64,000 bases of DNA, taken from assembly GCF_900290195.1 (NCBI RefSeq), contig NZ_OLMF01000004.1, forward strand, positions 733,501-797,500, given 5' to 3'. Of this stretch, positions 46,496 through 52,755 are shown one piece after another. How positions within the stretch are numbered: the first letter of the stretch is position 1; every line of letters begins with the position of its first letter. The translations under genes were made by a program, and so were the position numbers. The notes below the pieces were generated by a model, which was not told where the DNA came from, did no database searches, and saw only the letters and a list, made by a program, of their open reading frames with translations. The DNA comes from Anaerococcus marasmi. Its GTDB lineage: Bacteria; Bacillota; Clostridia; Tissierellales; Peptoniphilaceae.

Positions 46496-46554
46496 GTGGG
46501 GAAAAATGAAAAGAAAAAATACATATGACTCCACTAAGCTAGAAGTTATATAAA

Positions 46555-47120
46555 TTATATGAGATCTCTCGACTACGCTCGAGATAAGGGGTAAGAAAAC
46601 GAAGTTTTCTCTCCTCTTCCCTTACCTCGACCGAAGCGGAGAGGTCTCCCGAGAAATAGTAAAAGAATAATTCTTTTAAACCTAGAATTATAGCAAGCTA
46701 TACTATTACCGCCATCTCGAACGAATGTGAGAGATCTACAGTCTATGAAGACATGTAGATATAAAAGTTCAAGTTATCTACGTGAATACCTAAATAACAT
46801 ATTCTAAAACCATACACGTCCCAAGGTTCTGTATACCTCTCGTCGCTTCCTTGTGGAAGCTCTGTCGAGGTGGGGAAATAAGGAAATTTCTAATAAAAAA
46901 GAATTTATATTATAAGAGATGTCTCGACTACGCTCGACACTAGGGTAAGGTGGGAAAGCTAGCTTTCTAAATAATTAGAACGCCATTCGGCCTTCTTTTG
47001 CCCTTTGTTCCTACGAAACAAAGGGCACTACACTATTTGTCTTTCAGACAAACAGTGGCCCATCAGGAGGGCAACCTTGCTTCGAAAAAAGCCCGTCCGG
47101 CTCATGGAGGACTGGAGAAG
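46555..47120. repeat. Mosaic intergenic repeat array F
   Basis: Holds one full unit (46711-46873) and the uninterrupted palindrome context GCGGAGAGGTCTCCCGAGAAATAGT (about 46635-46660), which shows the IS110 target as it was before insertion. It also has hairpin modules GAAAACGAAGTTTTC and GGGAAAGCTAGCTTTC and the third cloverleaf element (46981-47076). An open frame runs through the last part into the next gene but has no plausible start there. Confidence 0.85.
46981..47076. repeat. Cloverleaf-like structured element, copy 3
   Basis: Compared with copies 1 and 2 the first hairpin changes on both sides (GACC...GGTC becomes GCCC...GGGC), which keeps pairing intact. This is a compensatory change. 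Confidence 0.6.
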
Positions 47121-47310: not shown

Positions 47311-48786
47311 ATGAAAAAATTATCTATAGAAAAATTGGCAGATACTGTCATTAACAAGAGAAAAGAAAAAGGAATAACTCAAAAAAGTCTTGCTGATACT
47401 ACTGGTATCAACAGGGCTATGATCAGTCGTTTGGAATCATGCGACTACACACCTTCTATCGACCAGCTTCAAGCCATAGGAGGAGTCTTGGACTTTGAAG
47501 TAGTCGATATGTTTGAGGAAGAAACATACGAAAAAGAGATTAAAGCTAACAAGAGCTACAAAATTGCCGTTGCAGGAACTGGATATGTAGGAATATCCAT
47601 TGCGACTCTCCTATCCCAACACAATGAAGTTACTGCAGTTGATATTGTAGAAGAAAAGGTAGAGAAGATTAATAATAAGATCTCCCCTATCCAGGATGAT
47701 TATATAGAAAAATATCTCAAAGAAAAGGACTTAAATTTAAGAGCAACCCTAGATGGCGAAGCTGCCTATAAGGATGCAGACTTTGTAGTAATCGCAGCCC
47801 CTACTAACTACGATAGCAAGAAGAACTTCTTCGATTGCTCTGCTGTAGAGGATGTAATAGAACTTGTCCTTAAGGTAAACCCAGAAGCTACTATGATTAT
47901 CAAATCCACCATCCCAGTTGGTTACACTAGAGAGATTAGAGAAAGATATAAGAGTAATAATATTATCTTTAGCCCAGAGTTCCTCCGTGAATCCAAAGCC
48001 CTTTATGACAATCTCTATCCTTCAAGAATCATTGTATCCTGTGATGATCAAAGTAGGGACAAGGCAGAAATCTTTGCCTCCCTTCTTACAGAAGGCGCCA
48101 TCAAAAAGGACATCCCTACCCTCTTTATGGGCTTTACAGAAGCTGAAGCAGTCAAGCTTTTCGCAAACACCTACCTCGCCCTTCGCGTATCCTACTTCAA
48201 CGAACTTGATACCTACGCTGAAAGCAAGGGACTAAATACAGAAGAGATCATCAACGGAGTATGTCTCGATCCAAGAATCGGCACCCACTACAACAACCCT
48301 TCCTTTGGTTATGGTGGATACTGCTTGCCGAAAGATACTAAACAGCTTCTAGCAAACTTCGACAAGGTCCCACAAAACATGATCTCCGCAATTGTCGATT
48401 CCAACAGGACCAGAAAGGACTTCATAGCAGATCAAGTTCTAAACATAGCAGGCTACTACGATTACAATTCAGACGACCAGTACCAACCAGAAATGGAAAA
48501 AGACTGCGTCATAGGAGTCTACAGACTAACCATGAAGTCAAACTCAGACAACTTCCGCCAATCCTCCATCCAAGGAGTTATGAAAAGAATCAAGGCCAAG
48601 GGAGCAAAGGTAATAATCTACGAACCAACCCTAGAAGACGGAGACACCTTCTTCGGATCTTTAGTAGTCAACAACCTAAGCAAATTCAAAAAAATGAGCC
48701 AGGCAATAATAGCTAACAGATACGACGACAGCCTGGACGATGTGATAGATAAGGTATATACTAGGGATATATTTAAGAGAGACTAG
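47311..48786 (+). CDS. XRE helix-turn-helix fused to UDP-glucose/GDP-mannose-type 6-dehydrogenase
   Basis: A 491-residue fusion. Residues about 1-70 are a Cro/CI-type HTH ([35 protein letters not shown]). Residues about 85-491 are a nucleotide-sugar dehydrogenase with Rossmann motif [16 protein letters not shown], the family stretch [15 protein letters not shown] and catalytic Cys in [15 protein letters not shown]. The start at 47311 has AGGAGG. It should oxidise a UDP- or GDP-sugar to the uronate for capsule, while the HTH may bind DNA. It lies about 4 kb from the capsule locus. There is no stop, linker break or frameshift between the domains. Confidence 0.9.
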
Positions 48787-48789
48787 AAG

Positions 48790-49425
48790 ATTTTTGAGAT
48801 GTCTCGACTAGGCTCGACGGTAGGTAAATTAAATAGATCTCTCGACTTACGCTCGATATAAGAGGAAAGAAAACAAAGTTTTCTCTCCTTTTCCCTTACC
48901 TCGACCGAAGCGGAGAGGTCTCATGTGTTGTACTAAAATTACAAATAATTAAAAACTTGTAATTATAGCAAGCAAACAATTACCGCCATCTCGAGCTTGT
49001 CGAGAGATCTCCAGTCTATGATGACATGTAGTTATAAAAGTTAAAGTTATCTACGTAAATATCTAAATAACCAAATCTCCAACCAAACATGTCCCAAGGT
49101 TCTGTAGACCTCTCGTCGCTTCCTCGTGGAAGCTCTGTCGAGGTGGCATGTAAGGAAATTTTTTTTAAAAAAAATACAGATTATGGTACGAGATATCTCG
49201 ACTACGCTCGACGGTAGTTTGCGGATTCGACTTCGTCTCATGCTCGCAAAGCCTCGATTAAGGTCTGTCATCAATTCACTAACGTTCATTGTGACCAGAA
49301 CCATTAGATATAAGGGGTAAGAAAATGAAGTTTTCTCTCCTCTTCCCTTATTTCGACTGAACGAAGTGAATGGAGAAATCTCTAGCATTTACCAATATCA
49401 AAATAACAAAGAATATACCTTGAGA
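48790..49425. repeat. Mosaic intergenic repeat array G
   Basis: Contains one full unit (48985-49146) and hairpin modules at about 48855 and 49320. At about 49200-49315 it has an inverted copy of the TGTCACAGTGAGC...GATTTGCGAGG...CAAACTACCGTCGA insertion module found in plus orientation at 30219-30450 and 38571-38670. Tail sequence TTATTTCGACTGAACGAAGTGAATGGAG is shared with arrays A, C and E. Confidence 0.85.
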
Positions 49426-49478
49426 TAAACTCAAACAATAGCTCCACCTTCAGTGGCCCAATAGAAGACTTCCCCATC

Positions 49479-49518: not shown

Positions 49519-49737
49519 TTATCCAATATTAAATTCTTGAGTTTCTACATTTTCCAAGTAGGCTTTTACTTTTCTACTTACCTTGCCGTCTTTGGTGGCG
49601 AGTGTTTCTGATGCTATGATTTCATCCATAGCTTGGTTTACTCCTGCATCATCGATGTTCTCTTTTGGGTTGTCGATTGAAATCATTCTTTTTGTTCCTT
49701 TTTCGTCTGCGAATTGTAGTTTTAGTCTTTTAGTCAT
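49519..49737 (-). CDS. DUF2922 family protein
   Basis: Seventy-two residues: MTKRLKLQFADEKGTKRMIS, then DNPKENIDDAGVNQAMDEII and a C-terminal KAYLENVETQEFNIG. This matches the small DUF2922 pattern. It follows the DUF1659 gene by 14 bases with an AGGAGG site. The two families usually occur as a pair in Firmicutes. No catalytic residues are evident, and the size and beta/alpha alternation suggest a small structural or adaptor protein. Part of the sigma-factor/amidase cassette. Confidence 0.8.
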   Translation of the reverse strand: MTKRLKLQFADEKGTKRMISIDNPKENIDDAGVNQAMDEIIASETLATKDGKVSRKVKAYLENVETQEFNIG

Positions 49738-49751
49738 ATGCTATTACCTCC

Positions 49752-49943
49752 TTAAGCTAGTTCTCTTGTTTCTATCTTGTATGCCTTGTGCTCGTTCGCA
49801 TTAGTCAAAGCCACATAGGCTTGGGCGAATTTCTTTAGGCCTTCGTCTGCTACTCCTTCTACTAGGCTTGAAAATGTCCTAGATAATGACTTTGCCTTCC
49901 CACTTATTTCTTCTACGATGTCATAAACAATTTTTAATTTCAT
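49752..49943 (-). CDS. DUF1659 family protein
   Basis: Sixty-three residues beginning MKLKIVYDIVEEISGKAKSLS with the typical ending NANEHKAYKIETREL. It is the first gene after the upstream special promoter site (49980-50015) and pairs with DUF2922. Function unknown. The shared TRTFSSL / FAQAYVALTN pattern is that of the family. Start follows AGGAG. Confidence 0.8.
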   Translation of the reverse strand: MKLKIVYDIVEEISGKAKSLSRTFSSLVEGVADEGLKKFAQAYVALTNANEHKAYKIETRELA

Positions 49944-49979
49944 ATTTTCTCCTTTAATTTTCTTATTTTGTAGGCCCTA

Positions 49980-50015
49980 CACTTATATATAGAATTTTTC
50001 GTCAAATCTTCCCGA
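49980..50015 (-). promoter_or_regulatory. Putative alternative-sigma promoter 1 (before DUF1659-DUF2922)
   Basis: On the minus strand TCGGGAAGATT lies 11 bases upstream of TCTATATATAAGTG. Both blocks and the spacing are identical to the site at 51044-51079, while the spacer bases differ. It sits in the 90-base gap between the amidase stop and DUF1659. Confidence 0.65.
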
Positions 50016-50033
50016 CTTTTTTGTTATTTTTTT

Positions 50034-50720
50034 CTAGATATCTATCCAAGTATTGCCATCGCTGTCTTTGTAGGCGACATATCTTCTAAGTCCACTGTCT
50101 TTTCCTATATAAGATAGCCAAAAATATCCTTCATTTTCTAACAGATAATCATAATATATCTTATCTCCAGGACAATAGTGGGTTATGATAGCACTATTTG
50201 TCGAGGGTCTCTCCCTAACATTAGTTATAGCATGGACTAGGGCACAGCCCTTCTTCCACACTCCCCTACTTGGAGAGATTTTCCCAACAGGTCTAAAGTA
50301 TCTCTCCTCGGCTGATCTCCTACAATCTAGATAATATCCTATAAAGGAAGTCTCATCGTTTATTGAAACACCATTGTTAGTGTAGTTGCAATGAATTATG
50401 GAGCCCTTCCTTAGAAATATCCCCGTATGGCCATAGGCCCCGGCGGAATGGCCCTCGATTCCTCTTATGAATATGTCTCCCCTTCTTACATCCCTATAAT
50501 CATAAATCTCCCTAAAAACTCTTCCCTTAAGCTTATATAGAGATTCAGTATTGCCAACCCTCGTCCCCCTTGGGAGAAAGCCTCCAGCTATCAAAGCATA
50601 ATAGACAAAGGACGAACAGTCCAAAGCCTCTGGCCCCAGCCTTTGGGGATAGGACATTGAGTAGGTCACCTTGTGATGCTTGGATAAGGCGAAGGCAATC
50701 ATTCTATCAACACTTGTCAT
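50034..50720 (-). CDS. Pal-like phage-type peptidoglycan amidase with C-terminal SH3-like domain
   Basis: A 228-residue protein. The N-terminal domain (about 1-145) follows the Amidase_5/NlpC-P60 layout of the pneumococcal phage Dp-1 lysin Pal: KVTYSMSY, catalytic Cys in ALDCSSFVYYAL, VGNTESLYKL, RGDIFIRGIEGHSAGAYGHTGIFL with the catalytic His, and IIHCNYTNNGVSIND. The C-terminal 75 residues resemble an SH3b cell-wall-binding module (ITNVRERPSTNSAIITHY, WLSYIG, RRYVAYKD). No signal peptide, so release needs a holin or lysis. It follows the YvrJ gene by 21 bases (GAGGAGG before the ATG). Confidence 0.85.
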   Translation of the reverse strand: MTSVDRMIAFALSKHHKVTYSMSYPQRLGPEALDCSSFVYYALIAGGFLPRGTRVGNTESLYKLKGRVFREIYDYRDVRRGDIFIRGIEGHSAGAYGHTGIFLRKGSIIHCNYTNNGVSINDETSFIGYYLDCRRSAEERYFRPVGKISPSRGVWKKGCALVHAITNVRERPSTNSAIITHYCPGDKIYYDYLLENEGYFWLSYIGKDSGLRRYVAYKDSDGNTWIDI

Positions 50721-50741
50721 AAATCCTCCTCTGACCTGGCC

Positions 50742-50873
50742 CTAGGCCAGGCTCTTCTTAATCTCATTAGTATCGATCAATATCCTGTCTATCTTCCCAT
50801 TGATTTGGAAGATTAAAATAAGACAAATGGCCACAGGAAAGCCTAGTTCACTAATAATTTTAATGATGTCCAT
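50742..50873 (-). CDS. YvrJ family small membrane protein (holin-like)
   Basis: Forty-three residues, MDIIKIISELGFPVAICLIL... then FQINGKIDRILIDTNEIKKSLA. One transmembrane helix is followed by an amphipathic charged tail, as in YvrJ proteins and in small holin-like peptides (BhlA/UviB type). It lies immediately upstream of the phage-type amidase, so a holin/endolysin pair is the simplest reading (inference). In Bacillus subtilis yvrJ is controlled by the neighbouring sigma factor YvrI/SigO, a parallel to the sigma gene here. Confidence 0.72.
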   Translation of the reverse strand: MDIIKIISELGFPVAICLILIFQINGKIDRILIDTNEIKKSLA

Positions 50874-50900
50874 ATCTTATTCGGCTTAGGATGTTCTGAT

Positions 50901-50980
50901 GATTATGCGATGGAAAATCCTTCCATAATCAAAAGACACAAGTCCTCTTCTTCTAGTCTCATAAGTCCAATGTTATGAGA
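50901..50980 (-). other. Structured 5' leader upstream of the YvrJ-amidase operon
   Basis: The 362-base gap between YvrJ and the sigma gene holds a promoter site and a ~170-base leader. The leader has two stem-loops: TCTCATAA/TTATGAGA (50957-50980, perfect 8 bp) and GATTATG..TGGAA/TTCCATAATC (50901-50930). No start codon with a ribosome site opens a gene in it. It may control translation or attenuation of the lysin operon. Confidence 0.45.
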
Positions 50981-51043
50981 GAAGACAGAAAGTGCGCCAC
51001 TCCTTTCTTTTTTATTTTTTTGCCTAAAGGCTAAACCTCCTTT

Positions 51044-51079
51044 CACTTATATATAGAAAAATAAGCCCAATCTTCCCGA
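51044..51079 (-). promoter_or_regulatory. Putative alternative-sigma promoter 2 (before YvrJ-amidase)
   Basis: TCGGGAAGATT and TCTATATATAAGTG with the same spacing as the site at 49980-50015. Here the upstream block also lies inside a hairpin (AAGCCTAATC/GATTGGGCTT). It reads away from the sigma-factor gene, into the YvrJ leader. Confidence 0.65.
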
Positions 51080-51235
51080 TTAGGCTTCTGGACTTTTATT
51101 GTCTGTTTTTATTTCATAAATGACTTTTAGGCAGATTAAGACCTAATAAGAGCACTTTATCCAATTAAACTTTTCTTTCCAAATAGTCTATTATGTAGGT
51201 GTCGACACAAAGAGAGCTCTCGGAAAGGAAATATT

Positions 51236-51751
51236 ATGAAAATAACTTTGGACAATTCCGAGAAAATACTAGCAGCCTACAAGCCGCTAATACTAAAGAC
51301 AGTCAAACAATTTGGTGCCTTTGAAGAAGAAGAATCCATAGACGAAGCAAGAATGATTCTTATAGATGCCATAGGGACATACGATGAGAGTAAAGGCACC
51401 TTCGGCAACTACCTCAAAAACCTCCTCCGCTACCATTTCTTAGACAAAGCCAAAACTCCAAGACCAGGCTCTATCTACGAAAAGAACGAGGAAAACAACT
51501 CAATAATAGACCTCCTCGAAGCAGAAGAAGATACAGAAGAAATAATAATGGCAGAAGAAAAGAAAAAGGAAATCCTAGAAAACTTAGAAAAAATAAACAA
51601 GAAAAACTCCCAAATCCTAAAACTAAAATTCTACAAAGACTTAACAAACAAAGAAATAGGCCAAATAATGAACATCTCCACCAAAACAGTCTTCAACAGA
51701 ATAAGCATGGGCCTAAAAGAAATGAGAGAAATAATGGTGGGAGAAAAATAA
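51236..51751 (+). CDS. Small sigma-70-family RNA polymerase sigma factor
   Basis: A 171-residue protein. A short region 2 (LILKTVKQFGAFEEEESIDEARMILIDAIGTYDESKGTFGNYL, then LRYHFLDKAK) is linked by an acidic stretch to region 4 (NSQILKLKFYKDLTNKEIGQIMNISTKTVFNRI). Size and layout resemble SigH/SigO-like and UviA/TcdR-like factors that act on few promoters. GGAAAGGA lies before the ATG. Divergent from the YvrJ-amidase operon, whose promoter site matches the one before DUF1659; these are its likely targets. No anti-sigma gene is visible next to it. Confidence 0.85.
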   Translation: MKITLDNSEKILAAYKPLILKTVKQFGAFEEEESIDEARMILIDAIGTYDESKGTFGNYLKNLLRYHFLDKAKTPRPGSIYEKNEENNSIIDLLEAEEDTEEIIMAEEKKKEILENLEKINKKNSQILKLKFYKDLTNKEIGQIMNISTKTVFNRISMGLKEMREIMVGEK

Positions 51752-51754
51752 AAA

Positions 51755-52140
51755 AAGATGTCACGACTCCACTCGATATAAGGGGTAAGAAAACGAAGTT
51801 TTCTCTCCCTCTCCCTTGTTTCGACCGCAGCGGAGAAACCTCTTGAAATTAATTCTATATTTAATTATAGAATATACACTGAGAGAAACTAAAATAACAG
51901 TTACGCCATCTCGAAGGAAGGAACGTAGTGACTGACTGAGAGATCTACAGTCTATGATGACATGTAGATTTAAAAGTTCCTGTTATTTACAAAATCCAAT
52001 GAGATATCTCGACTTACGCTCGACATAAGGGGTAAGAAAACGAAGTTTTCTCTCCCTCTCCCTTACCTCGACCGCAGCGGAGAGGTCTCAGGTGTTATAG
52101 TAAAATTGCAATTAATCACAACCTTTGAATTATAGAAATT
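51755..52140. repeat. Mosaic intergenic repeat array H
   Basis: One truncated unit (51905-51998), two CTCGAC...CGACATAAGGGG modules, two AGAAAACGAAGTTTTCT hairpins (about 51787-51803 and 52036-52052), and two uninterrupted CGACCGCAGCGGAG contexts like the IS110 target. It lies between the sigma factor and the ComK-like gene. Confidence 0.8.
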
Positions 52141-52180
52141 CACACATTCACACCATCTACAGGCAAGCCAACCCCCCCTC

Positions 52181-52209
52181 TTGAAAAGCCTTCCCTTCTC
52201 CTGTATAAT
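52181..52209 (+). promoter_or_regulatory. Promoter of the ComK-like gene
   Basis: TTGAAA (52181-52186), a 17-base spacer and TATAAT (52204-52209), a vegetative-type promoter. It does not carry the TCGGGAAGATT / TCTATATATAAGTG blocks. Confidence 0.7.
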
Positions 52210-52272
52210 TAAAGTACATTAACTGTCTTTTTATATTTTATAAAAACTATTAATGTCTGAAAGGAGGCTGCA

Positions 52273-52755
52273 ATGAAAAGAGAAATCTTGGCCATTCTGC
52301 CTGAACCTATGGAAAGAGTGGGGATAGTCTCTCGAATCTACTACACTGACACCACCGAAATAGACAAGAGAACCCCCACCCACTTCCTCAAAAACTCCTA
52401 CGACAGGAGGGGAAAGAGTAAGAAGCTCGTTGATAAGAAAATCAAAGCTAAAACCCAAATCAAAAGGAACTACCCCTACGTCATCGACAAGGACCACGTC
52501 TTCTTCGCCTTCAAGATCCGTGAGAGCAAATACGACGATCAACAAAGGGGCTTCGTCAACGTCAAATACGTAGACAAAATCCAAGGCTCAACCATAATCC
52601 TAACCACAGGAGAAGAAATCTCGAGCCTAAACACAGAAAAGACTCTCCTCTCCAACAGAAAAAACGCCCAACTCCTCTACTACATGAGCCTAGTAGAAAC
52701 CATGGCAGATAACTTCATGGCTATACAATATGTGCGTGAGAATTTGATGGACTAG
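52273..52755 (+). CDS. ComK-like transcription regulator
   Basis: A 160-residue protein that follows the ComK pattern along its length. An ILPEPME...IVSRIYY start aligns with AVLPE of ComK. HFLKNSYDRRGKSK aligns with the FFGSSYAGRK block. PYVIDKDHVFFAFKIRESKYDDQQRGFVNVKYVDKI matches the central region ending in W/FxxVxxV, and IILTTGEEISS matches the later beta strand. ComK activates DNA-uptake genes in bacilli by binding AT-box pairs. The C-terminus here is shorter. AGGAGG precedes the ATG. The call rests on motif layout, not on a search. Confidence 0.68.
   Translation: MKREILAILPEPMERVGIVSRIYYTDTTEIDKRTPTHFLKNSYDRRGKSKKLVDKKIKAKTQIKRNYPYVIDKDHVFFAFKIRESKYDDQQRGFVNVKYVDKIQGSTIILTTGEEISSLNTEKTLLSNRKNAQLLYYMSLVETMADNFMAIQYVRENLMD

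Follow-up and report, generated by a model that had tools for sequence, protein, structure and literature searches.

UviA/UviB and TcdR/TcdE are clostridial pairs of a sigma factor and a holin-like protein, the streptococcal wall hydrolases CbpD and LytF are exported enzymes under the control of ComX, and ComK has been studied mostly in Bacillales. In Bacillus subtilis the sigma factor SigO-RsoA transcribes the yvrJ operon (PMC8103513), yvrJ is counted among stress genes (PMC9605947), and in competent cells rsoA and sigO are up 8.7-fold and 3.9-fold, respectively, with yvrJ itself unnamed in the main text of that report (PMC7317962). In Staphylococcus aureus SigS directly targets sroAB, and SroA and SroB feed back on sigS, the former by promoting the accumulation of sigS mRNA (PMC13192611). 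Here we analyse a cassette at positions 49519-52755 of a 64,000-nucleotide stretch of the Anaerococcus marasmi genome (contig NZ_OLMF01000004.1, positions 733,501 to 797,500; “the window” below), which comprises genes for a small sigma factor, the holin-like peptide YvrJ, an endolysin-like amidase, a DUF1659 and a DUF2922 protein, and a homologue of ComK.

The cassette shares a dedicated sigma factor and a holin-like peptide with UviA/UviB and TcdR/TcdE, but differs by its ComK link and in that no adjacent toxin or bacteriocin gene was recognised; moreover, the 20 Pfam families that 67 aligned YvrJ sequences hit at E<=1 do not include BhlA/UviB. The parallel with UviA/UviB drawn by an earlier first-pass annotation thus stands for function only. 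With CbpD and LytF the cassette has in common a peptidoglycan hydrolase tied to competence, yet its enzyme is signal-less and is accompanied by a holin-like peptide and ComK. Phage holin-endolysin cassettes such as that of Lactococcus phage bIL286 likewise encode a small membrane peptide just ahead of a hydrolase that lacks a signal, and their hydrolase families are interchangeable, as at YvrJ loci; in contrast, the window cassette is chromosomal and includes the sigma factor, the DUF1659-DUF2922 pair and ComK, and no phage structural genes were seen among the window genes scanned. B. subtilis SigO-RsoA-YvrJ also combines a special sigma factor with a yvrJ operon and is linked to competence (PMC8103513, PMC7317962). 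SigO-RsoA, however, is split into two proteins and also controls oxdC, whereas the window factor is a single protein with a lysin and the DUF pair as apparent targets, so that the suggested SigO-YvrJ parallel holds for the operon and its sigma factor and fails for the two-subunit composition. Finally, S. aureus SigS-SroA-SroB resembles the window in joining an extracytoplasmic function (ECF) sigma factor to a pair of small proteins, there directly controlled, but no lysin or YvrJ appears in the parts of the SigS report that bear on the system (PMC13192611), and the window DUF1659 protein lies far under the SroA cut-off.

The genes for the holin-like peptide, the wall hydrolase, the small DUF proteins, the sigma factor and ComK form a real association that is widely conserved. 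No description of a YvrJ-hydrolase or YvrJ-ComK association was found in searches of one open-access library of papers. The cassette is best read as serving lysis or wall opening. The explanation that we favour, with belief and doubt in about equal measure, is that of a lysis (or wall-opening) cassette which belongs to the bacterium and not to a phage, is driven by the sigma factor and is tied to ComK.

Gene order and predicted promoters

The genes and promoter-like sites of the cassette are as follows.

49519-49737, minus strand: DUF2922 protein of 72 residues, second gene of its operon (Pfam PF11148, E 5.6e-19)
49752-49943, minus strand: DUF1659 protein of 63 residues (Pfam PF07872, E 2.9e-8)
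49980-50015, minus strand: promoter-like site CGGGAAGAT-N12-TCTATATATAAG of the DUF1659-DUF2922 operon
50034-50720, minus strand: endolysin-like enzyme of 228 residues with Amidase_5 and SH3_5 domains (Pfam, 9.8e-41 from residue 4)
50742-50873, minus strand: YvrJ peptide of 43 residues with a single hydrophobic segment, holin-like (Pfam PF12841, 1.3e-6)
51044-51079, minus strand: promoter-like site CGGGAAGAT-N12-TCTATATATAAG of the yvrJ-amidase operon
51236-51751, plus strand: small sigma-70 family factor (ECF-like) of 171 residues (TIGR02937, 5.5e-21; Pfam region 4, 3.4e-9)
52273-52755, plus strand: ComK homologue of 160 residues (Pfam, 0.0015; ComK profile comparison, E 7e-10)

This gene set agrees with the first-pass annotation, including a ComK-like neighbour that is weak by single sequence and supported by profile comparison. 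The amidase gene follows yvrJ after 21 bp on the same strand, the sigma gene is divergent from yvrJ, and the ComK-like gene lies downstream of the sigma gene. TIGR02937 covers residues 9-166 of the sigma factor, which is thus one protein (Pfam region 2 alone is weak, 0.032), and a PHROG sigma factor family matches at 3.6e-17.

Each operon has one promoter-like site, and the layout of the two is identical. Across the whole own genome, a search with up to three mismatches over 19 positions yielded these two sites at zero mismatches and three at three mismatches, the number found with the reversed-pattern control; with the spacer lengthened by one base, a single site at two mismatches appeared, located within coding sequence, and no third site above control was present. 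A shorter form of the site occurred 50 times in 31 congeneric genomes versus 19 times for the reversed control, and was found in 19 of the 23 congeners with YvrJ versus one of the eight without. Among 29 exact sites in the genus, 16 were verified upstream of yvrJ or DUF1659 and two were left unexamined; three of the 16 stand 0.8-1.0 kb upstream of yvrJ, behind a possible microprotein. In five genomes (L090, L098, L100, L103, L104) the DUF pair lies apart from yvrJ and the site still precedes it, which is good evidence that a single factor reads both operons. We infer that the adjacent sigma factor is this reader. Promoters described earlier as seen directly are better called predicted: the identical sites before both operons are there, and their promoter status is deduced from sequence.

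Several features of the leaders were read by eye, two of them in the window.

49969-49982, minus strand: short inverted repeat GTGTAGGGCCTACA where the DUF1659 mRNA presumably starts
50987-51009, minus strand: element AAGAAAGGAGTGGCGCACTTTCT within the long leader of yvrJ, found again in several congeners, without Rfam match

In some congeners the arms of the DUF1659 leader stem change yet stay complementary (GTGTAGG..CTACA, GTGTAAGGCAACTTACA). In several congeners, though not seen in the window, the first frame behind the sigma-type yvrJ promoter encodes a microprotein of about 16-26 residues (MTKILIYKEEKDDDK...; L044:8953-9030, minus strand) with a short hydrophobic start and an acidic tail; similar places exist in L043, L045, L047, L048, L050, L053, L055, L057 and L059. 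In order-level relatives (e.g., L067, L064, L073), two palindrome-like stretches (such as CCTAGG and GGAAGGTACCTTCC) directly precede the sigma gene and vary between genomes with their palindromy kept. A search of the cassette against Rfam gave no match, and the loci of eight relatives contained only S-adenosylmethionine (SAM) riboswitches, tRNAs and one TwoAYGGAY RNA.

Two congeneric genomes, G025 and G013, carry 11 and eight sites. In G025 the site lies 168 and 100 bp before genes for a type I HsdM methylase and a D12-class adenine methylase (L085, L086), the latter followed by another gene. This recalls competence-controlled DNA methylation, but may reflect chance or spread of the site. Both species (L087, L095) also keep a site in front of a SAM-hydrolase-like gene and an operon of ECF-transporter type, named by eye. 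The remaining extra sites were not taken as a regulon, as they look coding by eye (L089, L096) or are without a clear downstream gene (L088, L091, L093, L094, L097).

The AlphaFold models of DUF2922 and DUF1659 both show a beta-beta-alpha-beta order (predicted local distance difference test scores of 93 and 82, respectively). Their secondary elements thus come in the same order, yet a profile comparison of the two families is weak (probability 17). The closest NCBIfam model of the window DUF1659 protein is S. aureus SroA (NF049869), at 18.7 bits far below the curated 80. PADLOC recognised no defence system, its single marginal hit being the sigma factor (0.0023). The two flanking genes scanned with Pfam, a UDP-glucose/GDP-mannose dehydrogenase and a polysaccharide epimerase, belong to sugar metabolism. 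Dispersed repeats resembling miniature inverted-repeat transposable elements (46532-46943, 48767-49451 and 51746-52158; 42-172 nucleotides, 62-91% identity) flank the cassette and neighbouring genes.

Distribution of the cassette and homology of ComK

The cassette is not limited to one strain, as the synteny check proposed with the first-pass annotation made clear; its association extends over the order and the phylum. Within the genus, YvrJ is present in 23 of 31 congeners (own genome included). Their YvrJ loci, taken as 9-16 kb, contain a sigma factor of the window type in 12 and ComK in 14 of 23 cases, and a whole-genome search detected ComK in 30 of the 31 congeners. Among 24 further genomes of the order, 19 carry YvrJ, the succession sig-DUF1659-DUF2922-yvrJ-comK recurs, and ComK is adjacent in ten of the 19, which represent seven families. 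In seven of the eight order-level loci drawn, the cassette stands next to recD2 and comFC, with metK on the opposite side in six (genes named by eye).

At the level of the phylum, an even draw of 398 Bacillota genomes included 161 with YvrJ. For a closer look, 39 loci were hand-picked from these positives before any view of their neighbours, with preference for distinct families, long contigs and mostly high YvrJ scores (a 40th locus repeats genome G031). Within 2.5 kb of YvrJ, DUF1659 and DUF2922 are present in 35 and ComK-like genes in 13 of the 39 loci. No phage structural family is among the first 25 of 181 neighbour families in relatives.

The window protein is soundly judged a homologue of ComK by sequence comparison. 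Alone, it scores 18.8 bits against the Pfam ComK model (E 0.0015), below the cut-off of 22.3, and six of 19 close relatives match at 0.01. Aligned as profiles with hhalign, however, these 19 relatives match ten reference ComK proteins, which come from six genomes and score 105-206 bits to Pfam ComK, over 144 columns and full length (probability 96.5, E 7e-10), and the phylum-level ComK-like set does so at probability 95.2 (E 2.6e-8), versus 0.1 for the negative control of DUF1659 against ComK. A function like that of ComK is putative. In five loci (L161, L169, L170, L179, L180) the gap from hydrolase to ComK gene is -44 to 66 bp, an arrangement that looks operonic at times.

YvrJ and its wall hydrolases

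The window amidase matches a PHROG endolysin family (3.9e-30), and its first 127-151 residues are 45-50% identical to Lactococcus phage lysins; in the one Lactococcus record opened, phage bIL286, a holin gene directly precedes the related lysin gene. A relative in Anaerococcus tetradius is 76% identical. Throughout the genus the amidase gene keeps company with yvrJ: all 23 loci have it on the yvrJ strand, at a distance of at most 41 bp in 22 of them (about 750 bp in the other).

More distant relatives maintain this pairing with other enzymes. In 15 of the 39 phylum-level loci a hydrolase abuts YvrJ (less than 100 bp), in all cases on the YvrJ strand; by Pfam-confirmed family these are 11 Amidase_2, three Peptidase_M15_3 and one Amidase_3, which makes the Amidase_5 enzyme of the window the fourth unrelated hydrolase family to accompany YvrJ. 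The gene lies downstream of yvrJ in 13 of the 15 and upstream in L158 and L159, and several overlap YvrJ by a few bases, which may reflect misread starts, since starts were taken as longest frames. The Amidase_3 enzyme (L164) and Amidase_2 enzymes in five loci also bear a SPOR domain. Among the 14 of 19 order-level YvrJ loci that were searched, one has a hydrolase beside YvrJ (Amidase_2, L071), and two other genera of the window's family (L060, L061) have an Amidase_2 gene within the cassette, not directly at yvrJ.

In a blind Pfam tally of 130 near neighbours, Amidase_2 ranked first (nine members; M15_3, three), whereas among 130 far neighbours both families fell outside the first 25 and hence had at most one member each. 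This tally omitted frames shorter than 100 residues, cut by the locus end or located 2-3 kb from yvrJ; proteins of more than 600 residues were dropped (nine near, 11 far), 130 of the remaining 162 far proteins were used, and the amidases of L169 and L170, hidden by longer overlapping frames, were found afterwards. Across 81 loci (80 distinct), a search for further hydrolase copies came up empty beyond about 750 bp from YvrJ; the models used are biased to close kin because they were made from the examples themselves.

The paired enzymes appear to be made without an export signal. Their catalytic domain starts within residues 1-21 in the hydrolases scanned, except in L159 (39) and L169 (56), and no hydrophobic start was apparent in 19 hydrolases and 23 amidases, whose best 12-residue mean in the first 35 residues was at most 1.5, versus 3.1-3.2 for two exported reference proteins. 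Four unrelated families on the same strand, often touching YvrJ, make a pairing by chance hard to argue.

YvrJ itself is a short hydrophobic peptide (hydropathy 2.45 for the window member; 77 of 81 sequences have a 17-residue segment with a mean above 1.3). All 67 aligned members match PF12841 at E<=1 and share an invariant F-P motif; the window peptide reaches 28.2 bits, 1.3 under the cut-off of 29.5. At E<=0.1, 65 of the 67 match phrog_4898, named holin by PHROGs (best 1.8e-9), and searches against phages gave weak hits only. YvrJ is considered holin-like because it recurs next to wall hydrolases that are signal-less and unrelated to one another, an arrangement typical of phage lysis cassettes, and it may accordingly permeabilise membranes. 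Programmed lysis, as suggested earlier, thus finds comparative support in the signal-less hydrolases of four families and in the match to a phage “holin” family.

Weighing the explanations

In the explanation that we favour, the small sigma factor, perhaps together with or downstream of ComK, would turn on both operons via one promoter type. The peptidoglycan hydrolase would be held in the cytoplasm until the holin-like YvrJ allows its exit, and DUF1659 and DUF2922 might serve as feedback or timing factors of the sigma factor, by analogy with SroA and SroB. As a presumed outcome, a sub-population would lyse and free DNA and cell content in a manner coupled to the ComK state. DNA exchange may be the benefit, and DNA release or fratricide the purpose. 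A tie between the cassette and DNA exchange makes a good hypothesis, for which experiments offer a single thin hint: the rise of sigO and rsoA in competent B. subtilis cells lends thin, independent support to an axis from ComK via a sigma factor to YvrJ (PMC7317962).

Several observations weigh against this explanation. Regarding YvrJ, the “holin” name of phrog_4898 is an annotation, the window peptide alone matches that family at 0.033, no Pfam holin family rises above noise for the 67 members, and Pfam XhlA, with hits to four of 67, does no better than the unrelated Hda_lid (nine of 67). In the records opened of small phages, the neighbours of the YvrJ-like gene are DNA polymerase or packaging genes and not the lysin, which leaves phage synteny neutral on the holin reading (the annotation of one Microviridae record is too sparse to judge neighbours). 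No hydrolase was found beside YvrJ in 24 of 39 phylum-level and 13 of 14 order-level loci searched; there, YvrJ therefore acts alone or with an enzyme elsewhere. Fold searches at E<=0.001 returned no PDB or viral match for DUF2922 and no PDB match for DUF1659.

Regarding control, 11 of the 29 exact genus sites are located elsewhere than at yvrJ or DUF1659, the window site layout is absent upstream of all 36 phylum-level DUF1659 genes searched, and a sigma factor of the window type occurs within 2.5 kb of YvrJ in five of the 39 phylum-level loci. ComK boxes number two upstream of the same 36 genes, versus 0.9 expected, and one of 17 phylum-level ComK-like proteins matches Pfam ComK at 0.01. Seven of the eight congeners without YvrJ retain ComK, which is hence independent of YvrJ; among 61 genomes, YvrJ and ComK occur together in 41, ComK alone in nine, YvrJ alone in five and neither in six.

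Genes for ComEC and a ComEA-like protein are present in the own genome, as is one for a T2SSE ATPase next to a comM-like gene; none of them has the sigma-type site. Their mere presence is useless as a test of a competence link because they are nearly universal (ComEC in 60, T2SSE in 61 and ComEA-like proteins in 61 of the 61 genomes). Inspection by eye of six genus loci, the own included, revealed no comG genes past the ATPase (comGB and pilins were not searched genome-wide). Some kilobases past comM and T2SSE, where comG genes might be sought, the own genome (L105, C2:28000-44000) harbours, by eye, a toxin-antitoxin-like pair, a group II intron-like reverse transcriptase gene and an HNH gene. 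DNA uptake by the host is uncertain, as comG was not seen past the ATPase and the site is absent at com genes. Of the proposed step to DNA release, fratricide or uptake, the ComK link and the induction of sigO and rsoA in competent cells (PMC7317962) survive; the step itself stays conjectural, given the site's absence from com genes, the unseen comG and the persistence of ComK in YvrJ-less congeners.

The main rival, which we consider unlikely, is a non-lethal opening of the wall, in which a YvrJ-released hydrolase would locally thin the peptidoglycan for a competence pilus, a DNA uptake machine or a secretion apparatus. The ComK and comFC neighbours suit DNA uptake more than lysis, recD2 and comFC accompany most order-level loci drawn, and the genome holds ComEC and a ComEA-like protein. 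To our knowledge, however, the known competence hydrolases are exported proteins, whereas the YvrJ-linked enzymes are signal-less, and the six genus loci show no comG genes past the ATPase. This rival stays alive because a competence-induced hydrolase of Streptococcus sanguinis, LytF, is reported to promote the extrusion of pili and to give no indication of acting as a fratricin (PMC13192262).

Somewhat less probable again is an ordinary stress module of the SigS-SroAB or SigO-YvrJ kind, with the lysin a passenger by chance or for wall repair. It gains from sroAB being a direct SigS target with feedback on sigS (PMC13192611), from the transcription of yvrJ by SigO-RsoA (PMC8103513) and its place among stress genes (PMC9605947), from SroA as the closest model of the window DUF1659 protein, and from the 24 of 39 loci with no hydrolase at YvrJ. 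The recurrence of four unrelated hydrolase families, on the same strand and often touching YvrJ, speaks against a passenger.

The SPOR-bearing Amidase_3 and Amidase_2 enzymes might alternatively lyse the mother cell of spore formers, acting like CwlC of B. subtilis, whose layout resembles amidase plus SPOR, and being freed by YvrJ late in sporulation. We regard this as very improbable: the cassette is kept in Anaerococcus, a non-sporulating genus, and is linked to ComK, and a crude promoter count upstream of 36 DUF1659 genes gave zero sigma-K, zero sigma-E and zero sigma-G/F consensus sites; sporulation control was rejected for want of any excess. Least credible of all is a domesticated prophage, or what is left of a bacteriocin lysis system like that of UviA/UviB plasmids, a reading which the phage-type amidase and the matches of YvrJ and the sigma factor to phrog_4898 and phrog_1740 would suit, but which is opposed by a chromosomal neighbourhood conserved across families, the lack of phage structural families among the first 25 neighbour families and of a BhlA/UviB match, and a tblastn search with the sigma factor that found nothing at 1e-5 in phage and plasmid collections.

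Extended to the phylum, the favoured lysis-type cassette would become a ComK- and sigma-coupled lysis switch of many Bacillota, anaerobes among them, built from a chromosomal YvrJ holin and interchangeable cytoplasmic endolysins and timed by the DUF proteins, in which the lysis of sister cells from within feeds DNA to ComK-positive cells; this we offer tentatively, as a proposal that is less likely than not. If true, regulated self-lysis and competence would be genetically linked across much of the phylum, with one more route added to streptococcal fratricide and prophage-driven lysis, YvrJ, DUF1659 and DUF2922 would have a function assigned, and B. subtilis, with sigO, rsoA and yvrJ, would provide a bench for testing the link. 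As it stands, a single hypothesis open to test now covers these three widespread families of unsettled function, and ComK turns out to be connected with a lysis-type cassette in anaerobes, a group about whose natural transformation little is known.

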